Assembly (NCBI GenBank): GCA_951799425.1
Contig: OX637402.1
Coordinates: 22,333,844-22,397,843, forward strand
Direction of reading: 5' to 3'
From: Ilex aquifolium
Lineage: Eukaryota; Streptophyta; Magnoliopsida; Aquifoliales; Aquifoliaceae
DNA length: 64,000 nt
Shown here: positions 38,720 through 61,100 of the stretch, one piece after another
Numbering within the stretch: position 1 is the stretch's first letter
Layout of the letters: each line of letters begins with the position of its first letter
Program-made: the position numbers and the translations under genes
Notes under the pieces: generated by a model
What the model was told of the DNA's origin: nothing
The model's input: only the letters and a program-made list of their open reading frames with translations
Database searches by the model: none

Positions 38720-39130
38720 AAGCTACGTATAGCGTCGGTGGATCGCTGCCGTGGCAGAGGTTTGTAAGGTGACTACTTGCGCGAGAGCAGAGTCATAGAG
38801 GTCGAGCTACGTATAGTCTCGGGGGTGGTTGCCATGGCAGAGGCTTACTAGGTGACTACTTGTGCGAGAGCAGAGTCATAGACCGAGCTACGTATAGTCT
38901 CGGGAGATGGCTGTTGTAGCAGAGACTGACTACTTGCGCGAGAGCAAAGTCACAGAGGCCGAGCTACGTATAGTCTCGGGAGATGACTGCCGTAGCAGAG
39001 GCTTACAAGGTGACTACTTGTGCGAGAGCAGAGTCATAGAGGCCGAGCTACGTATAGTCTCGGGAGATGACTGTCATAGCAGAGGCCCATTCCATTGAGA
39101 TGGAGATGAGGAGATGGCTGCCGTAGCAGA
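38720..39130 (-). repeat. About 80-bp tandem repeat inside the LTR element, five copies
   Basis: GCTACGTATAG begins at 38722, 38806, 38887, 38963 and 39047 (spacings 84, 81, 76 and 84). Each is followed by a CTCGGGAGATG box, CCGTAGCAGAGG, and GACTACTTGCGCGAGAGCA. A 47-base block ending in GAGATGGAGATGAGG is then duplicated at about 39085-39160. Confidence 0.88.
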
Positions 39131-39697
39131 GGCTCATTCCATTGAGATGGAGATGAGGAGGACGCTGAGGAGCTGAGCGCCTGAGGTGCGCCTGGTGAGA
39201 TGGGACGAGACCCATCGTCTTGGCGGGATCATTGGAGGTGCCCAAGGTGGAAATGGTGAGACCCCTTGTCTGGGTGGTATCATGGAAGGCGCCCAAGGTG
39301 GAGAGGGCGAGACCCCTCGTCTGAGCGCCTGCTGCTAGGTGCCTGGTGATGGGCGCCCTTTGTCTTTTTGTCTACCTTGTTGTGTCATGTTCTGACTTTT
39401 GTAAGCTGTTTGTAAATTTTAAAAAGGCAAAACAATTCTGGACATAATAATCTCCGCAAAATTTTATTTTATAAAATAACAAATAACAAGGTAAATCAAC
39501 TAATAAATGATAGATAAAATCTTCAGGTGCTCGGTGTCCCGTAGGTGGGCCAAGACTTTCCTGGTAAAGTTGGAGTCACCCCTTCCTAGCCCTTAGGCTA
39601 TCGTCTGGATTTCTCCGAGGGGTTGTTGGCGTTCTCTGTCATCCTGGTCCCAACCAGGTGGCGGGGCTTATCCTCTGCCAGCAACGTACTGCCTCAA

Positions 39698-41198: not shown

Positions 41199-42182
41199 TG
41201 ATTATGCACAAAATTGTCTTGTGCAAGATTAACAGTCAAGAATGTATAATGGTGTAATTAATGAGCAATTAACAATCAATCAATGGCAATCAAGGAATTA
41301 AAATTGTAAACAGAGAACCAACACGGGGATGTATAGTGGTTCGGTCTCGGATGACCTACTCCACTTTCGGGAATGGCAGCGGTGACTTGGTGTTCTTTAT
41401 TGATGAATAAGAGTCGCCGGAGGGATGTTCTCCGGGAGTATTACAGTGCTTTGGGAGAGAGAGAGAGAGAGAGAGAAAAAAAGCAATATGTGTAGTAAGT
41501 GTATAGGATCTTGGAGATGTCTCAAGGTCCTACCCAAGTGTGTAGATCATGTCCTCTATGTGGAGAGGACTTACATTATATAGGCTTAGTAAGGCGGTGA
41601 GGCGGTGACGTGAGGGAGAGGTCTTCCACTATTTTGGTAAGTGCAATCTTAGTATGAATAGATCTCTTTGACAAGCACAGTTAAGGTAGGAATAGATCTC
41701 CGTCTGCATCCCGATATTTTCTCCCTCCTGTTCCTATTCATTCGGAGGAGGATCCTGAGCTGGGTTGGACTTGAGTTGTCTTCTTGAACTGTGTTGGACT
41801 TGAGTTAGAGTGACGGAGTCAAGAGAAATGGAGAGAAGTAGGCGCCCAAGGGACTTGCCCAGGTGGACCTGCGCCCAAAGGACCAGGTCCAAGGGACTTG
41901 CGCCCAAGAGACCAAGTCCAAGGGACCTGCCCAGCGGTGCCCAAGTGCAGCCATGCATGGCGCCCAAGGGCTGCCATAGGCGGCGCCCAAGAGGTCTGCC
42001 TAGGTGGCGCCCAAGGGTTGCCATGTCTTCCTGCTTTGGGCGTTGGCCTCTTGATGCCTTCTCTTTGTTTGGCCTCTTCTTTGGACTTTCTCAGTTCTGT
42101 TTTCATCGGGCTTGAATCGCTTTTTATTGACTTGGACCTTCTTGATTTATTGGGCCTGACCCAGTTAATTTCGGGCTCATCA
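41199..42182 (-). repeat. 5' LTR (right)
   Basis: About 984 bp. It differs from the left LTR by an extra GTTGGACTTGAGTTG-type duplication near 41765-41805, an extra GCGCCCAAGAGACCAAG segment near 41900, and a shorter GA tract. The two LTRs have therefore had time to diverge. Confidence 0.92.
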
Positions 42183-42189
42183 ATAATAA

Positions 42190-42449
42190 TCTATACTACA
42201 ATAAAATGTCAACAAAAGTGAAAAACTTTTGATTGACGTAAATAACCTTACTAAAAGAACTAATACCTCTTATATCCTACCCTTTCATATTCCTCTCTTT
42301 AATTTTCCTCTAATATTAATCTCTACTACAATAAAATGTCAACAAAAGTGAAAAACTTTTGATTGACGTAAATAACTTTACTAAAAGAACTAATACCTCT
42401 TATATCCTACCCTTTCATATTCCTCTCTTTAATTTTCCTCTAATATTAA
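42190..42449 (+). repeat. 130-bp tandem duplication of the Helitron 5' end
   Basis: Two nearly identical 130-bp copies (42190-42319 and 42320-42449), differing at TCTATAC versus TCTCTAC and a few other bases. Confidence 0.92.
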
Positions 42450-44891
42450 TTTCAAATTAAATTCATAATTTCATCTATACTAATCTAACCCATCAACAAT
42501 TCAATTATTTTCTCTTAAACCTAAAGCTCTTTATTAGGTCATTACACTAACCTGAAGCCCCTTCATCTCTCCTACCGGCCCCTTCATCTCTCACTGTCAC
42601 TGTTGAAGGGTCGCTTGTGCATAATCTCCCAATTCATAACCTTTGTAATTATAACTCATGCATAGTATCGATTCTAGACAGTGTCATTCATCTTCCAAGT
42701 TTCGTTCATCTTGAGATAATTAACACTCAGATCCAATCTGCTTTCCTACAGAGGAAGCATTCATTATCTCCTTTTTGTTTGGCCATTTCTTGAAGAAACT
42801 ACACACGGTTTCTGTAGCATATTTCTGAAGAAGCTTCACGTTATATTCTTAAACATCATTAAATCACTGTCCAGTTCAAAGCACTTCTCTCTCTGTGGGT
42901 GTGTTGAGAAACTGGCATGCTCCTTGAATAGGTAGGTACTCTCCCATTGGTTCATTGCATTTTATTTTTAAGAACATAATCCTTTTACTCTTTTTTTTTT
43001 TGTCAGGTCCGCTATTATGCACTTATAACAAAAATAATAGATGTAGATTGTGGAAGAAGCACCAGGTTATGCATTTTGCCAATGTATAAAGATTCATATA
43101 TTCCGTCTCAAACTGCATAGTAGTCTATTAGTCGGACAAAGTATAAATTTGTAAGATAAGTTCACTTTTGCACCTTTGTTATTTCTTCTTTTCTCAAATT
43201 TTTATCCATTTAACATCTACCCACACATGACTAATGCAAGTTATGGTTCCCCTACCTGAAAATCCTCGGAAATGGTTGCCAAAAGGATGCAAGGAAGAGG
43301 TTGCAATCAATAGCGATCTATATCAATCTGCTTGCTGAGATGGAGATTCCAAATGCTTATTTAGAAAATTTGCCCAATGTATAGGATGGTTCATTTTTTT
43401 TTGGTCTGGAAATGCCAAAATATATCGTAGAGCTGGGTACTATATTTGATGGTCATCATCACTTTTGTTTCAAGGATATAGTTTAACTTTCAATTTATTT
43501 TTTAAATTAAGGAAAGCTGACACTTAGAATCATATATTTTTTTGCTTCCTTCCAAGTATATTTGATCTTAATTCCAAAATCCTCCGCCTACAAATTTTAC
43601 CTGCTTATGTAATTGTCTTATAAAGTTTTCCTTTTTATATAACTGTTAACATGGTGTGGTTTTTAAATGCATTTGAATTGAATCTATTTATATTGTTTCT
43701 AATTCATGAGTTTTAGTTTCTGGGTTGAACACTTTACTATGTATTCAAAGGGGAAATAAGTGAAAAAGATGCAGTGTTGCTCAACAAATACTGACTTATT
43801 ATTTATATTTGTTTTGAATAAATTGATTGAACGTGTTTGAACTAATCTACAGACAGTAGTGTATGATCAACATAGGTTCTATACATATGTTCATTTGGCC
43901 TTTCAAATGAAAAAGTGAAGAACATTGATCATATTGGATAAGGACACTTCCATTTCTTAAAAAAGATTGATCATAGCTCAGAACATCAAACTATGAATAA
44001 AGAATTTGTCATATGTTGAGCACATAAAAGAAATCTGAAAACTTCTTGAAACACAAACATGGGGCACAAGACTATATTTAAAAATGATTGAATACATTTC
44101 ATAATACAAACACTTGTGCATGCAAGATTATAGAGGAAAAGGTTAAGTAAAAAGTGAAGAACGGAGAAAATTGTGAAGGCAAGGTTGTTACCTTGTCTAT
44201 GTATTAGGCGTCTAATTAACATCACTACGGAAGTTTAATTTTGACCACTTTTTGGGTTTATGGTTTACTATGATTGATACTTTTTATGGATAAGTATAGT
44301 TTTATTTTCTCTTGACTTGTGCTAGCATGTTTAATTTCGTCTCACATGCAATGGAGATGGGGTGATTTGTTATAATTTTTGTGTATATTATTTATGCTTG
44401 CAGAACCTCATCGACTTGGCAAGTAATTAAAGTTTTAAGTCTGATACTACAGGTATACGTTAAAAAAAAAATGTTACATCAATAAAAGTCTGCTAACTCT
44501 TAGAACTGTAAGACCTTGCTCATTGTCACTTTGTTGACAACGTAATAGTTTTGCTCAAATGATGTTTTTCCTTAGTTTTCAAATTATTTATAAAAGTCAT
44601 CCAAATAATTTATCAGTCACAAATATTTATTTAATTACTGTAATATTTCTTTGTGAGACGATGTACAAAACTTGTAATAGTTAGTGAAAGTTGCATGACA
44701 TTATAAAGATGATATAAAGAAAAATGTACTTGCCCCAAATATTCAATTCAATATTTATTTACCCAGTACTTTTTGGGTATTAGAAAATGTGATTTTTGGC
44801 TGACCAATATCGATGTTTTTTAAAGATGTTGATTTCAAAAAAGAAGTTATCAATTTATCTAATGTGTACTATTTTTATATTCAAAATTATT

Positions 44892-52403: not shown

Positions 52404-53149
52404 TCAATTGTTGTTCAATCCAAAAACAATTATTTTACCCCCAAAAAGTAAGTCAGAATCACTAACATCTTTTAGCATATCATTCAATGCTTCAATGGCT
52501 TGACGCCTAGCCATAGATGCTTCATCCCAAATTATGAGTTTTGCTATTCTTAAAAGTTGAGCGAGAGAACTTTGCTTACCCATATTACAAGTTGTGTATA
52601 AGTCTATATCTATAGGTATTTTAAAATGCGAATATGTTGTGCGTCCACCTAGTAAGATTGAAGCTGCAACTCCATATGTTGTAGTTGCAAGAGCAATATA
52701 CTTTTTTGATTTAACTGTAGCCAAAAGTGCTCGACTGAGAAAAGTTTTGTCAATAATATCAGATCCGTCGATGAAAAATGACATTTGTTTTCCAAAGAAA
52801 ACTCTATCGATTATTATTATTATTTGAAATGCATTATGTTGCAGCGAGTTTAGAATTGAAATTGCTTGATAATCTTTCTCAAAAATAGAAATATTCATTT
52901 CGGCTTCAATTTCTTTGCATATGGTTTCATTGTTGTTGAGAATCGTATCATTATTTCAAATGTTGAAATCTTTGATATCTCTTCCCATTGTTTTGCAACA
53001 CTTTCTTTTGAGAGATTTTTTTTGTCGGCATAATCTTTGGACATAGAGCATTCAAATTTTTCCCATAATGTTTTATGATTGTTAGAAGCGCAATGGACAA
53101 GAATGGTAGCAAAGTCCGAAATCACTATTAAGTAATTAAAATTAAACAA
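52404..53149 (-). pseudogene. Helitron Pif1-type helicase fragment
   Basis: Frames 53149-52895 and 52898-52404 on the minus strand follow one another. The first has the HKTLWEKFECSMSKDYA block that precedes the helicase core. The second has a damaged Walker A (FFIDGSDIIDKTFLSRALL, where FFIDGPGGTGKTFLYRALL is normal for the family), LATTTYGVAASILLGGRTTYS, the FKIPIDID block, an intact-looking Walker B LIIWDEASMARRQAIEALN, and a final FGGKIIVFG. The Walker A glycines and threonine-lysine order are lost, the frame shifts between segments, and it ends at 52404, so it is dead. It shows that an autonomous Helitron lineage was present in this genome. Confidence 0.9.
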
Positions 53150-55142: not shown

Positions 55143-58100
55143 ATGAGGAACCGAAACAGTGGTAAAATCTCTTCCAAATGGATTCCGGTTTTCTCCATCT
55201 CTTTCTTCTTCCTTGGAATGCTCTTCACTAACAGGTATCTCTCTCTCTTTCTCTCTCAATTCTATGTCTTTTTGTGGATCTATTGGTTAAAGAAATCGAG
55301 GGTTTGGGTTGAAATTGTCAAAGAACAGTGATTTAAGCTAATTCTCTCTGCAATGGGTGCTTGTGTGTAATGATTGTGTTGGTAAGTTTGAAGTTTGATC
55401 TTGAATAGTCTTTGATTGTAGCTTATGAATTTGTGATTTTTAATCTGTTGCGACCCAGATTGTGGGCCCCGCCTGAATCCAATAGTCAGCTCATATCAAG
55501 CCATCGACGTGAACAAGAATTGCAGATCATTTCAGAGGACTGCACAACTAAGAAGGAGGTTTGTGTTGCACTTAACACATTGCCATCTCTGTCTCAAATT
55601 TCAAGTTTTTGAGTATTTTTATATCCGGGTAATTACACATTGTGCTTACATATTCACTGTTTAATTGTTCTCTGCATTAGAAGCCAGGACAAGAAAAAGA
55701 TGTGATGGACGAGGTTTACAGAGCACATGAAGCAATTCAGTGAGTTCATAGGCTTAAATAGTCCTAATTTTGGTGCATTTCTGTACTATACCCCATTCAC
55801 TATATCCATCTAATCTTCGGTTCAAGTCTGTGGTGTTAATTTAGAAACTTTTTGGTGAATTTTGCGGAGGCCTGATAGATCACTGGACAAGTCCATGTCG
55901 ATGCTTCAGATGGAGTTGGCTGCCACTCGGAGTACTCAAGAGATCGGGAGGTCTGATGGGTCATCTAGTGTCTCAGCCTCTTCACATGAGGGCCCTCCGA
56001 GGAAGAAGGCGTTTATGGTTATTGGAATTAATACTGCTTTTAGTAGTAGGAGGCGCCGTGATTCAGTTAGAGAGACATGGATGCCCCAAGGTACTAGCTT
56101 AATGTTATTATATGTTTGATGTTGATCTTGGTGTCATAGACCTCTTTGATCTGAAATTTACTATTTTGTTGGGCTACATTAGGGGACAAGCTTCTCAAAA
56201 TGGAGGAAGAAAAGGGAATTGTCGTCCGGTTCATGATTGGCCATAGGTAAACCAATTTTGTGTATCATTTCATTGGTGAAAGTAGCTCTACAATTTGTTA
56301 CAACAATTAAATTCTTGGGCAAGTGACCCTCGTTAATAGTTTTGGAAGTTACATATATCTCATTTTCTTCTTGTCTCAAGGAACAACATGATTGTGCCTA
56401 GTTGTGGGAGAGACACTGTAATGCCAGCGATCCTTGTCTCATGCTCTGCAGACTATGCATGCCCTTTTGAGCTTTTAGGAAACAATGAGATGTCAGCTTG
56501 TTATGTAAATGGATTAGTTTTGCATCACTTATTTACGGCTTCACCAAAAGTAAAGAGCAGAAATTGTTTAGGCTTACGAGTTAAATTTTGTTCCAGCTGA
56601 GGGTCTGATATGTTGTGCAAACTGCAAAGTTGTTTAAGTTGATAGTGTTGTAAGGTAGTTTAATGAGAGACTGAAGCAGATAAATTAAAATAGATCAAAG
56701 GGTTATTATGAGTTGTTTGGATGGATAATGAGCTACATGATATCCAATATTACAAAATCCACTACCAAGGCCGCATGATGATGTATAGGTACTTCTTTAG
56801 TGTTCATGGTGGGCTGCTAAAGCTGCAATGTGCGACTTGATTTTTTATCGTTGTTAATTCAGTATCTGGTAGATTAATTCGTACGGAATTACAGATAGAA
56901 AATTCATACCAACAGTGTTGGACCTACTGCAGGATTTGGTACATAGAGGGAATAATGGAACACCAAGCAACGACTCCTCAAGTTTTATAACCACTGAAAT
57001 GAGGCTTAGCCAGAGAGAGGTAAAGGATAAAGGACGGGATGGGGTTTTTGGAGATAGGTGGTGTAGAAGAAGAAAAATTGTGTATGACAATAAGGGACAT
57101 GGACATTTTCATAAGATATGGTGACCTTAATAGCTGATACTGTGGTTGAGATAGTTCATTCATGTCCTTGGATCATCAATTATTAAGCATTTCAAAAGAA
57201 GTTAGCCTGTCCTTTCTAATATTAGAGTCACTTTCTCCATTTTGGTATGTCCCAAAATCATAGTATAGTTCAAAAAGTGAAAAGTATTTTTTCAAAAAAT
57301 TTACCCAACATACCCTCGCATGAAATTTGTGGCTTTTTTGAAAAGTTCAAATTTCAAATTGATAGGTAGGGTGATATGGGAAATAGCAATGATTTAACTA
57401 TATCCTTAAAAAGTTGGATTCTCAGAAAAGGGCCCAAGTTGAGGGGGAGAGGGAGTAATGTTTATGGTGAGAAAAGCTAAAAGGAGAGAAGGGAAACGTA
57501 AGATAAGCAAGTTTCGTTGCATTAGACATTAGAAGCTCCCAAGTATAGAAGTTATTGTAGATGACATGCACTCTTTCTTTAAAATTGTTTGTAATAACAG
57601 AAGGCAGTTCCCTCAATTCGAATGGACATTATACTTTCTTTGTTTTAATTTTTTTTTTTCAGTATTGGGTAATTATGTAGGGCTACTTTGTGGTTGCATG
57701 AGATTATTTTTTTTTTATAATTAGGACAGATCTGTTACTTGATTCAAGTTATCAACTAGGTTCATGGCAGCCTACTCTCTGTCCACCAGATAGAGTACGA
57801 ATAGTTAGGCTTCAAATGTTCGCAGTTCGTTTTTGTTCCAGACCTTTAGTTATCTGGCATGGAGACCATTCCTTAGATCATTGATCTAGTGGGCTATTAT
57901 GCATGAGCATGTGGATTTGAGCATGAGAGGAACTACTTCCTTATCGATTTTATTTGCTCCAATGTTTTTTTATGCCAGCATGCCCAGTATATTGCGACGT
58001 CTGTTTGAATATAAACAATCCTTCCATAAATAGTGTTTTATGGTTATGTAGATGGAAAGTTCCCTTGAGTGAGAGCATTTATTGCCAAATCCGATTGAAT

Positions 58101-61100
58101 TTTTTTCCCCAAACAAATCTTTGATTCATATCCATAAATATCTAGCACAGACAAATTGAAAACTGACTATTTTTTATGATGAAAAATTGTTCACATGAAA
58201 CGATGCATGTGTATTGCTTGTGAATTTTCATTAATATAATGGAATATTCCAATATATGTAATAGATGATGATGTCGTCAAAGTTTTGAAAATCGGCCATT
58301 ATGGAGTGTAACGACTGTTACGTAATGGTAACAACGGAAAGCGATTCCGTTGCACCCCGTTTTCTCGGTCCTTTTTTATTTCACGACAGTAACGGGCCTT
58401 AACGGTTGTTACGTTTGGGTAACGGGTGTGTAACGCCGGTAACAGCCGATTCAGGTTAAAATGGACCGTTACAGGCCGTTTCGACCCGAAAATCCGAGTG
58501 ATGTGTAATCCCTTAGAAGAATCGATTTTTAACCACAAAACCCCGATTTTTTGCTCTCAATAATCCAATCGATTCACCATAACTTGAAATCTTAATCATT
58601 TGGATATAAAATAATGAAGATTCTACCGCAAAACTTCAATTGGATTTGATTCTTTTGAGGATTTTGAGAATGAATTAAAGAAGAACAAAGAAGAGAGAGA
58701 GAGGGAAAATGAGACTCAGGACTAACCTGGGGAGTGCCTAACAGTTCGTCTCTTCCCCATCTTTTGTTCACCTATTACTGAGTTTTTTTTTTTTTTTTCA
58801 TTTGGATCGCCAGAAAACCGAGTCCACCGGCTTCATGTGTTGTGAACGGAGGGAGTGGATAGAGATGACAAAGAAAAGAGGGAGATGCTTAAACACGTGG
58901 ATGTGGTTAAATGAGGCTGAGATGTTGGCCATCATATCCAAGCCACGTGAGATGGGTTCTTCTATTTTACTGTGCCTTGTTCCAAAATTCAACCACGATT
59001 AAGGGATAATATCTTCTGGTTTTAAACATTAAACCCACTTTTTATTTATGAACTTTTAATATAATAACACCATAATTATTATTTTTTCATGTACTAGCAT
59101 CTACACTTAACATGATTTTAGAATTGAAAAAAAAAAACATTCATTTTTAGAGATGGTGTGAATTGAAAAAAAAAAATTCACGCCTCTGGTTTCCATTACA
59201 GTCGCGTAACGTCTGTTATGCCACGCGTCCGTTACACCGTTACCGTTATCGTTACGGCGGCTATTACCGTTATTCATAACCATTGATGTTGTGGTCTATA
59301 TGGAATTTCAGAAATTGCCACTCTCATGCACTCGTTCTAGCTCCCACTCCCATTCTTGATATCCTAGGGTTGTAGATTTCCAATAGCAAATTTATATGGA
59401 GTATTGAAGTATAAATACATAAGTTACACTCTCTTCAACAATATAAACTTATGGAGTAGATGGTTGTTTAACATGGTATCAGACCAAGAAGTCTTGTGTT
59501 CGAATTTCGCTGCCACCCTAATTATTAAAAAAAGTTCTCATGTGCTAGACCCAAAATATAGCCTACACGTGAGGGGGTGTGTTGAAGTATAAATACTTAA
59601 CTTATATTCTCTCTAACTAGTTAAGTTTTTGGAGTAGATGGTTGTTTAACATGGAGAAACATATTTCTAGATGAAATCTTGAATAGCATTGTGGCTTCAT
59701 CAACAGAAATATGTCCAAATTTACCCCTTTTTTGGCTTAGTTGTGGCCCTTTCTATATGACAACATTTTCAGTTTAAGTCTTTAGAAGGCATAGTCATGT
59801 CCCTTGCGACCTGGTTTATTTCTTTCTTCACTTTGCAAACTGTCTAGTTTATTCCTAATCAGTCCCTCGTATCCCTTACCATGTTATCTTGTAAGTTGAC
59901 TTCTAGGATTCCATTGGCTCCTTAATCTAGGATTCCTTTGTCTTCTTGACTTAGTATCTCTTGGAACTACTTCACCTCAAATTGCTTTCAGGTGATGGTT
60001 TTCTGGCAGGTGGGGGGAAGGGCCTCTTAGTCCCGAACTTCGGGCCAACTTTTTGGCTTCAAGATCTGGAGATGAGGGAGATTTTAGCAAAAAAGTTGCA
60101 TCTGTTGTTCTGGGTTTTTATAATACTCCCAAAATTTTGGGTCAGGTTAGATCTATTAAGTTGTGGTTGAGTGACTTGGATCATGAGATTCTGTCTCATA
60201 AGTAGTTGTTGACAGTTACGTGCTCATTGGCTTGTGTTTGAATAGAATAATTTTGCAACAGTATTTTTATTTCACACATTGCACTTATTTTTGGTATGTC
60301 TTCCAGCATGGACATGTAGATAGATCATAGGTCAGTATTGAAATAACATGTTCCCCTAAAAGTGGGGACTACTCTGATAGTTTGTTTATTGGTTCAGTGC
60401 AACACGTAGCAGCATCTTGGATCGGGCTATTGACTCTGAAGATGCTCAGCATAAGGACTTCCTCAGGCTGGTTAGAAAGCACATGCCAATTTTACGAATT
60501 TTATTTGGGATATCTCACCATATCATGAACCACAATCTGCATTGTTGTGTAGGAGCATGTTGAAGGGTATCATGAATTGTCTGCAAAAACAAAAATTTTC
60601 TTTTCCACTGCTATTGCAAAATGGGATGCTGATTTCTACATCAAGGTTGACGATGATGTGCATGTCAATTTGGGTATAGACTGTCCACCTTTTTCCTTCT
60701 CCCTCGTCTTTTAGAAGATTGTTACCATTGTTTAACTCATCTTTGTTATGTGTTCTGCTTCTATAGGTATGCTAGCTGCAACTCTTGCCCGCCATCGTTC
60801 AAAGCCTAGAGTTTACATTGGGTGTATGAAATCTGGGCCTGTTCTTTCTCAAAAGTAATCCTAGAGCTTTCTTAGTGATGAAGATTTGCCTTTTCAACTT
60901 AAATTTTGCCTTCTTGCAATAGTGGTACATTTCTTCTTCTTCATATTTAACTCTTTTTGGTTCAATAGGACTGTTAAGTACCATGAACCAGAGTACTGGA
61001 AATTTGGGGAAGACGGGAATAAATACTTCAGGCATGCAACTGGGCAGATTTATGCCATCTCAAAGGATTTGGCTACATACATCTCAATTAACCAGTAAGG

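Follow-up and report, generated by a model that had tools for sequence, protein, structure and literature searches.

Terminal-repeat retrotransposons in miniature (TRIMs) are non-autonomous LTR retrotransposons, recognized by two LTRs, a total length below about 1 kb, the lack of coding capacity, a primer-binding site (PBS) complementary to the 3′ end of a tRNA beside the 5′ LTR, a polypurine tract ahead of the 3′ LTR and a target-site duplication (TSD). In plants they have been sorted into 156 families, of which CcaRetroS9, 233 bp long with 52-bp LTRs, is the smallest named in the available part of the source (PMC4717578). The same part describes TRIMs as often lying in or near genes, introns included, reports tandem arrays for 129 TRIM subfamilies and gives larger relatives that share 79–98% of their LTRs (PMC4717578). 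SMART (FRetro129), with 292 bp and 85-bp LTRs, belongs to a similar size class and is reported, in the accessible portion of its description, from grasses only (PMC3281118). SMARTs are likewise often found in or near genes, introns included, and the SMART/FRetro64 pair shares an 11-bp LTR motif, the PBS and the polypurine tract, plus 96% of the SMART interior, as far as that portion goes (PMC3281118). Helenus elements are TRIMs with a tRNA-like LTR, and the only plant case that the consulted section reports comes from Selaginella (PMC10886601).

Here, we describe a 250-bp element in Ilex aquifolium, found in a stretch of 64,000 nucleotides (the window), together with its family in the same genome. 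With very high confidence, we regard it as an aged member of a TRIM family, a reading based on its LTRs, the PBS match, the existence of a family, fixed ends, 5-bp duplications and tandem arrays.

The element and its host gene

Direct reading and a repeat search of the window place the element at 59402–59651 on the + strand, the search returning a direct repeat of 79 nt at 82% identity with a spacing of 178. The 5′ LTR (59402–59473, +) starts with TA and ends with CA, the 3′ LTR (59580–59651, +) has the form TG...CA, and the alignment of the two 72-bp LTRs, which contains no gaps, gives 59 identical positions out of 72. Directly behind the 5′ LTR, with zero spacer, lies a PBS-like site, TGGTATCAGACC (59474–59485, +), which matches the initiator tRNA-Met gene of this genome at 11 of 12 positions and from which priming is predicted. 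It is followed by a non-coding internal region (59486–59568, +) and a putative polypurine tract, GTGAGGGGG (59569–59577, +), in which GAGGGGG stands two bases from the LTR, as TG sits between GTGAGGGGG and the 3′ LTR and the tract is not flush with it. The whole is flanked by TGGAG at 59397–59401 and again at 59652–59656 (both +), an exact 5-bp duplication that would arise by chance with a probability of about 0.0016, judged from local composition. The element thus combines two LTRs of 72 bp within 250 bp, no coding capacity, a PBS, a tract for putative plus-strand priming and a TSD, the last examined across 48 copies. The coordinates of the original prediction, which had named the 250-bp element, its two 72-bp LTRs, the zero-spacer PBS-like site and the TGGAG duplications, are confirmed by this reading. 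Its phrase ‘complete with all cis signals’ is right as to the presence of LTRs, PBS-like site, G-rich tract and TSD, but too generous as to their state, with a 5′ terminus of TA and a mutated PBS.

In the window copy, the two LTRs have diverged by 0.208 (Kimura), within a family range of 0.014–0.261 and above the median of 0.159 (46 copies). At the substitution rate of rice, 1.3e-8, this would correspond to an age of about 8 million years, and to a greater one with slower rates, with the wide error that comes with 72 bp. From its sequence, the window copy is old and decaying and probably dead, which fits its 5′ terminus of TA rather than TG and the changes in its PBS and LTRs.

The element lies in sense orientation within a GT...AG intron (56247–60397, +; splice ends by eye) whose flanking exons, also joined by eye, continue in frame. 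A Galactosyl_T profile matches downstream at 60553–60711 (E 1.3e-8, above the cut-off) and again at 60865–61095 (E 2.6e-4, below it), and a weak DUF4094 match, also below the cut-off, lies at 55859–56116. The predicted location in an intron of a GT31 gene is therefore upheld by the profile match and the in-frame exons, GT31 being the name that we take to apply to this Galactosyl_T gene.

Other features of the window include a PIF1-like helicase fragment at 52407–52955 (−; PF05970, E 1.5e-34), probably a Helitron remnant, a tandem duplication at 42182–42450 (2.1 copies of a 130-bp unit at 97%), and tandem-repeat clusters at 38770–39327 and 41842–42024, in which several units contain GGCGCCCAAGG.

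A dispersed family with fixed ends

The whole genome that carries the window (800 Mb, 103 contigs) served as search space. The element as query gave at least 46 matches on 17 contigs, with the best 40 of 881 candidates scored. The 21 nt of the LTR 3′ end, at up to three mismatches, occur at 1083 places genome-wide compared with 38 for the reversed control, and a 25-nt query joining the LTR end to the PBS, at up to two mismatches, occurs at 177 places, which include the junctions of a Copia family discussed below, compared with none for its reversed control.

To count duplications, 70 loci were reduced to 48 near-complete copies by leaving out 13 partial loci and nine more that represented the same element twice. 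When the ends were predicted from the window copy, the flanking 5-mers were identical in 16 of the 48, the window copy among them, differed at one position in 14 and at two or more in 18; with the ends shifted, 13 controls gave an exact duplication in 0 or 1 of 48 and a one-mismatch duplication in 0 to 4. The 48 copies are not all independent, as three have like flanks on contig C14 and several form tandem arrays, and one of the 16 exact duplications sits in an AT repeat. Because the counts at the fixed ends exceed those of the shifted controls, the family is a mobile element that makes 5-bp duplications, and the ends of the element are fixed by the family. The original prediction would have failed had other copies lacked 5-bp duplications or had homology run past the ends, and the outcome (16/48 exact against 0–1/48) favours the element. 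The 18 copies with two or more flank mismatches, together with the G-rich tract that is not flush with the LTR, count against the TRIM reading.

The same counts bear on the idea that the window holds two unrelated 72-bp repeats, produced by tandem or segmental duplication, whose resemblance to an LTR element is accidental. The PBS string, with at most one mismatch, occurs at one place in the window, and 19 of 100 shuffled versions of the window contain it at least once; taken by itself, the PBS is therefore weak evidence. Against the idea stand copies scattered through the genome that share their ends but are flanked by differing 5-bp duplications, as well as LTR-end counts far in excess of the controls; the fixed-end TSD counts already contradict this explanation, which we regard as scarcely credible.

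The alignment excluded L012 and L024, which are probably segmental duplicates of L003; the remaining 46 copies are 240–252 bp long, and 36 of them have a 5′ LTR of 72 bp. Base by base, conservation across these 46 singled out no signal, A/T positions being mostly kept and many C/G positions varying. The window itself contains a second, more decayed copy of 236 bp at 702–937 (−), flanked by ACTTA and AGTTA (four of five positions identical). Tandem arrays are also present: L023 (C6:37844377-37845554) comprises five LTRs and four interiors, L026 three LTRs and two interiors, and smaller or partial arrays occur at L014, L035 and L054. The genome search with the LTR that had been proposed as a check, for copies, solo LTRs and 5-bp duplications, thus yielded the first and the last; no solo LTR with a TSD was found among the 12 LTR matches read, which were among the best of 47 (the best 40 of 730 candidates scored) and which all adjoin interior sequence, either of an element or of a fragment.

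Signals for priming and transcription

The commonest PBS in the family is TGGTATCAGAGC (12/46 copies), followed by TGGTATCAGAAC (7/46); the form of the window copy, TGGTATCAGACC, occurs in two of the 46 and is one base off the commonest. A 36-nt initiator tRNA-Met pattern has seven exact places in the genome, and the two that were fetched were both called tRNA-Met. The 3′ end read from one of these genes, with the CCA that we assume to be added to it, is complementary to TGGTATCAGAGC at 12 of 12 positions. A similar G-rich, purine tract stands ahead of the 3′ LTR in other copies of the family.

Within the LTR, TATAAATA, which lies at 59410–59417 (+) in the window copy's 5′ LTR, is a putative Pol II TATA box, found without change in the 5′ LTR of 36 of the 46 copies and in the 3′ LTR of 34. 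A CA whose A lies 27 bases past the first T is present in 22 of these 36 5′ LTRs, and one at 30 bases in 23; the corresponding numbers for the 34 3′ LTRs are 18 and 19. A distance of 27–30 bases from the TATA box is usual in plants, and the combination of TATAAATA with CA at these two distances points to Pol II initiation at about LTR position 36–39, with the reservation that related copies share the signal by descent.

The transcription, priming and help in trans that we infer for this TRIM would then proceed as follows. A Pol II transcript, directed by the putative TATA box of the 72-bp LTR, would run from near position 36–39 of the 5′ LTR into the 3′ LTR and be roughly 180–210 nt long; initiator tRNA-Met would prime the minus strand at the PBS, which adjoins the LTR, and the G-rich tract the plus strand. 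An autonomous Copia element would provide reverse transcriptase and integrase in trans, and insertion would generate the 5-bp target duplication.

Transcription could also be imagined to start from an internal Pol III promoter, made up of the A-box-like TGGAGTAGATGG at the LTR end and the B-box-like TGTTCGAAT behind the PBS. The element would then contain a tRNA-gene-like unit straddling the LTR and the PBS and would be akin, in principle, to Cassandra and Helenus. The best A-like/B-like pair does begin at 51 and 96 (bins of 5) in 31 of the 46 copies, and GTTCGAA follows an intact AACA plus PBS at 16 places genome-wide (at a distance of 12 bases in 15 and of 10 in one, with none in the control), at least 10 of which are also matches of the 25-nt LTR-end and PBS query. 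Scored against a box consensus, in a test chosen after the words had been seen, the copy whose LTRs differ least (L005) is equalled by only 7 of 300 shuffles, but the window copy by 39 of 300. Box positions are kept no better than the rest of the element across the 46 copies, no tRNA or 5S match appears at E≤10 among 17 loci and 12 loci (one place in both), and the TTTT immediately ahead of the A-like box would be likely to terminate Pol III transcription already within the 5′ LTR. Support for a Pol III promoter is weak overall, and we consider a TRIM of this construction very unlikely; equally improbable is the reading in which a degenerate Pol III promoter of this layout, terminated by the T-run in the 3′ LTR, spares the 72-bp LTR the need of a Pol II promoter.

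Two further candidate signals were rejected. Second tRNA-pairing boxes behind the PBS are known from Ty1/Ty3; here, the duplex energy was matched by 223 of 500 shuffles. For a special fold of the presumed transcript, z was −0.89 and 37 of 200 shuffles were equally good.

A candidate Copia helper

Junction matches from the 25-nt search, consisting of TGATTGTTTAACA joined to TGGTATCAGAGC, led to a family of 4.7 kb, of which eight loci (L071–L078) were picked by a pattern that itself selects the junction. Seven of the eight have one direct repeat of 194–215 bp with a start-to-start distance of about 4.5–4.6 kb, while in the eighth, L072, the repeat comes in two overlapping pieces at 4.65–4.7 kb; L075 and L076 look like a single duplicated locus. 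LTR identities range from about 95 to 100%, so some of the Copia copies are young. Two loci were scanned for domains: L078 has Copia gag, integrase core and RVT_2, and L071 has RVT_2, with integrase core below the Pfam cut-off.

All seven Copia copies compared carry TTGTTTAACA followed by TGGTATCAGAGC, for which they were selected, and six of them GAGGGGAGA ahead of the 3′ LTR. The TRIM and the Copia family have in common TTGTTTAACATGGTATCAGAGC, a TGTT start and a similar purine tract (six of the seven copies), the overlap amounting to 22 nt across LTR end and PBS. By eye, comparison of the TRIM with the seven copies disclosed no further likeness, the LTRs being otherwise visibly unalike. Among the first 100 of 307 places with another kind of junction, one with T at −11 that excludes both families, TTGTTTAACA occurs at none and TTTAACA at four.

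The case for a link is therefore the 22 nt and the similar purine tract, found through a pattern that selects the junction, and on it the 4.7-kb family is a tentative candidate for the enzyme donor, or helper, of the TRIM, with a probability that we place somewhat below an even chance. The search for a larger relative able to supply enzymes, also proposed at the outset, has accordingly produced a Copia family with the 22-nt junction, though one whose LTRs are otherwise unalike and whose standing is that of a helper candidate only. The junction and the similar purine tract would also be expected if the 250-bp element had arisen by internal deletion from this family. Such a derivative would hardly have LTRs of 72 bp against 194–215 bp, devoid of other visible similarity, or a differing stretch behind the PBS, and we judge this origin unlikely.

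Comparison with known systems

The TRIM family resembles Cassandra, with which a comparison had been suggested, in being a small non-coding LTR element with tandem arrays, and Helenus in being a small TRIM with a 5-bp TSD in plants, as described in the section cited (PMC10886601). Cassandra found no backing, since 17 loci and 12 loci (one place in both) gave no 5S rRNA match at E≤10. In the same loci there was no tRNA match at E≤10 that would point to Helenus, the A/B-like words being weak, and no hammerhead match that would point to a retrozyme; the Rfam matches seen, some of which overlap the elements, all remained below gathering scores. With no 5S, tRNA or hammerhead match in these loci, the family is none of these three by their defining features.

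The family is well delimited, lies near the lower size limit of TRIMs and shares its genome with a possible Copia helper. As a small natural template, it could be used to ask what minimum of sequence is required for LTR retrotransposition, and it leaves the accepted picture unchanged. The statement that its size is ‘at or below the small end’ does not stand, nor is the size record-small: CcaRetroS9 is smaller by its published dimensions, the window element being slightly larger (250 versus 233 bp), and the two are set apart here by description (PMC4717578, available part).

SMART is alike in size class, in TGT...ACA ends, in the 5-bp TSD and in its often intronic position, and also in having a candidate helper with a short LTR motif, PBS and polypurine tract in common, this likeness being one of description (PMC3281118, accessible portion). 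It differs in that the helper candidate of FRetro129 has 96% of the interior as well. The TRIM/Copia pair thus resembles the SMART/FRetro64 pair in its short LTR-end motif, PBS and similar purine tract (PMC3281118, same portion), whereas its visibly unalike LTRs distinguish it from the larger TRIM relatives, at 79–98%, in the part of the text cited (PMC4717578). With the plant TRIMs described there (PMC4717578), the family shares two short LTRs, a PBS, the lack of coding capacity, a 5-bp TSD, a genic site and tandem arrays, and it is an ordinary TRIM family, well-formed and either new or unnamed.
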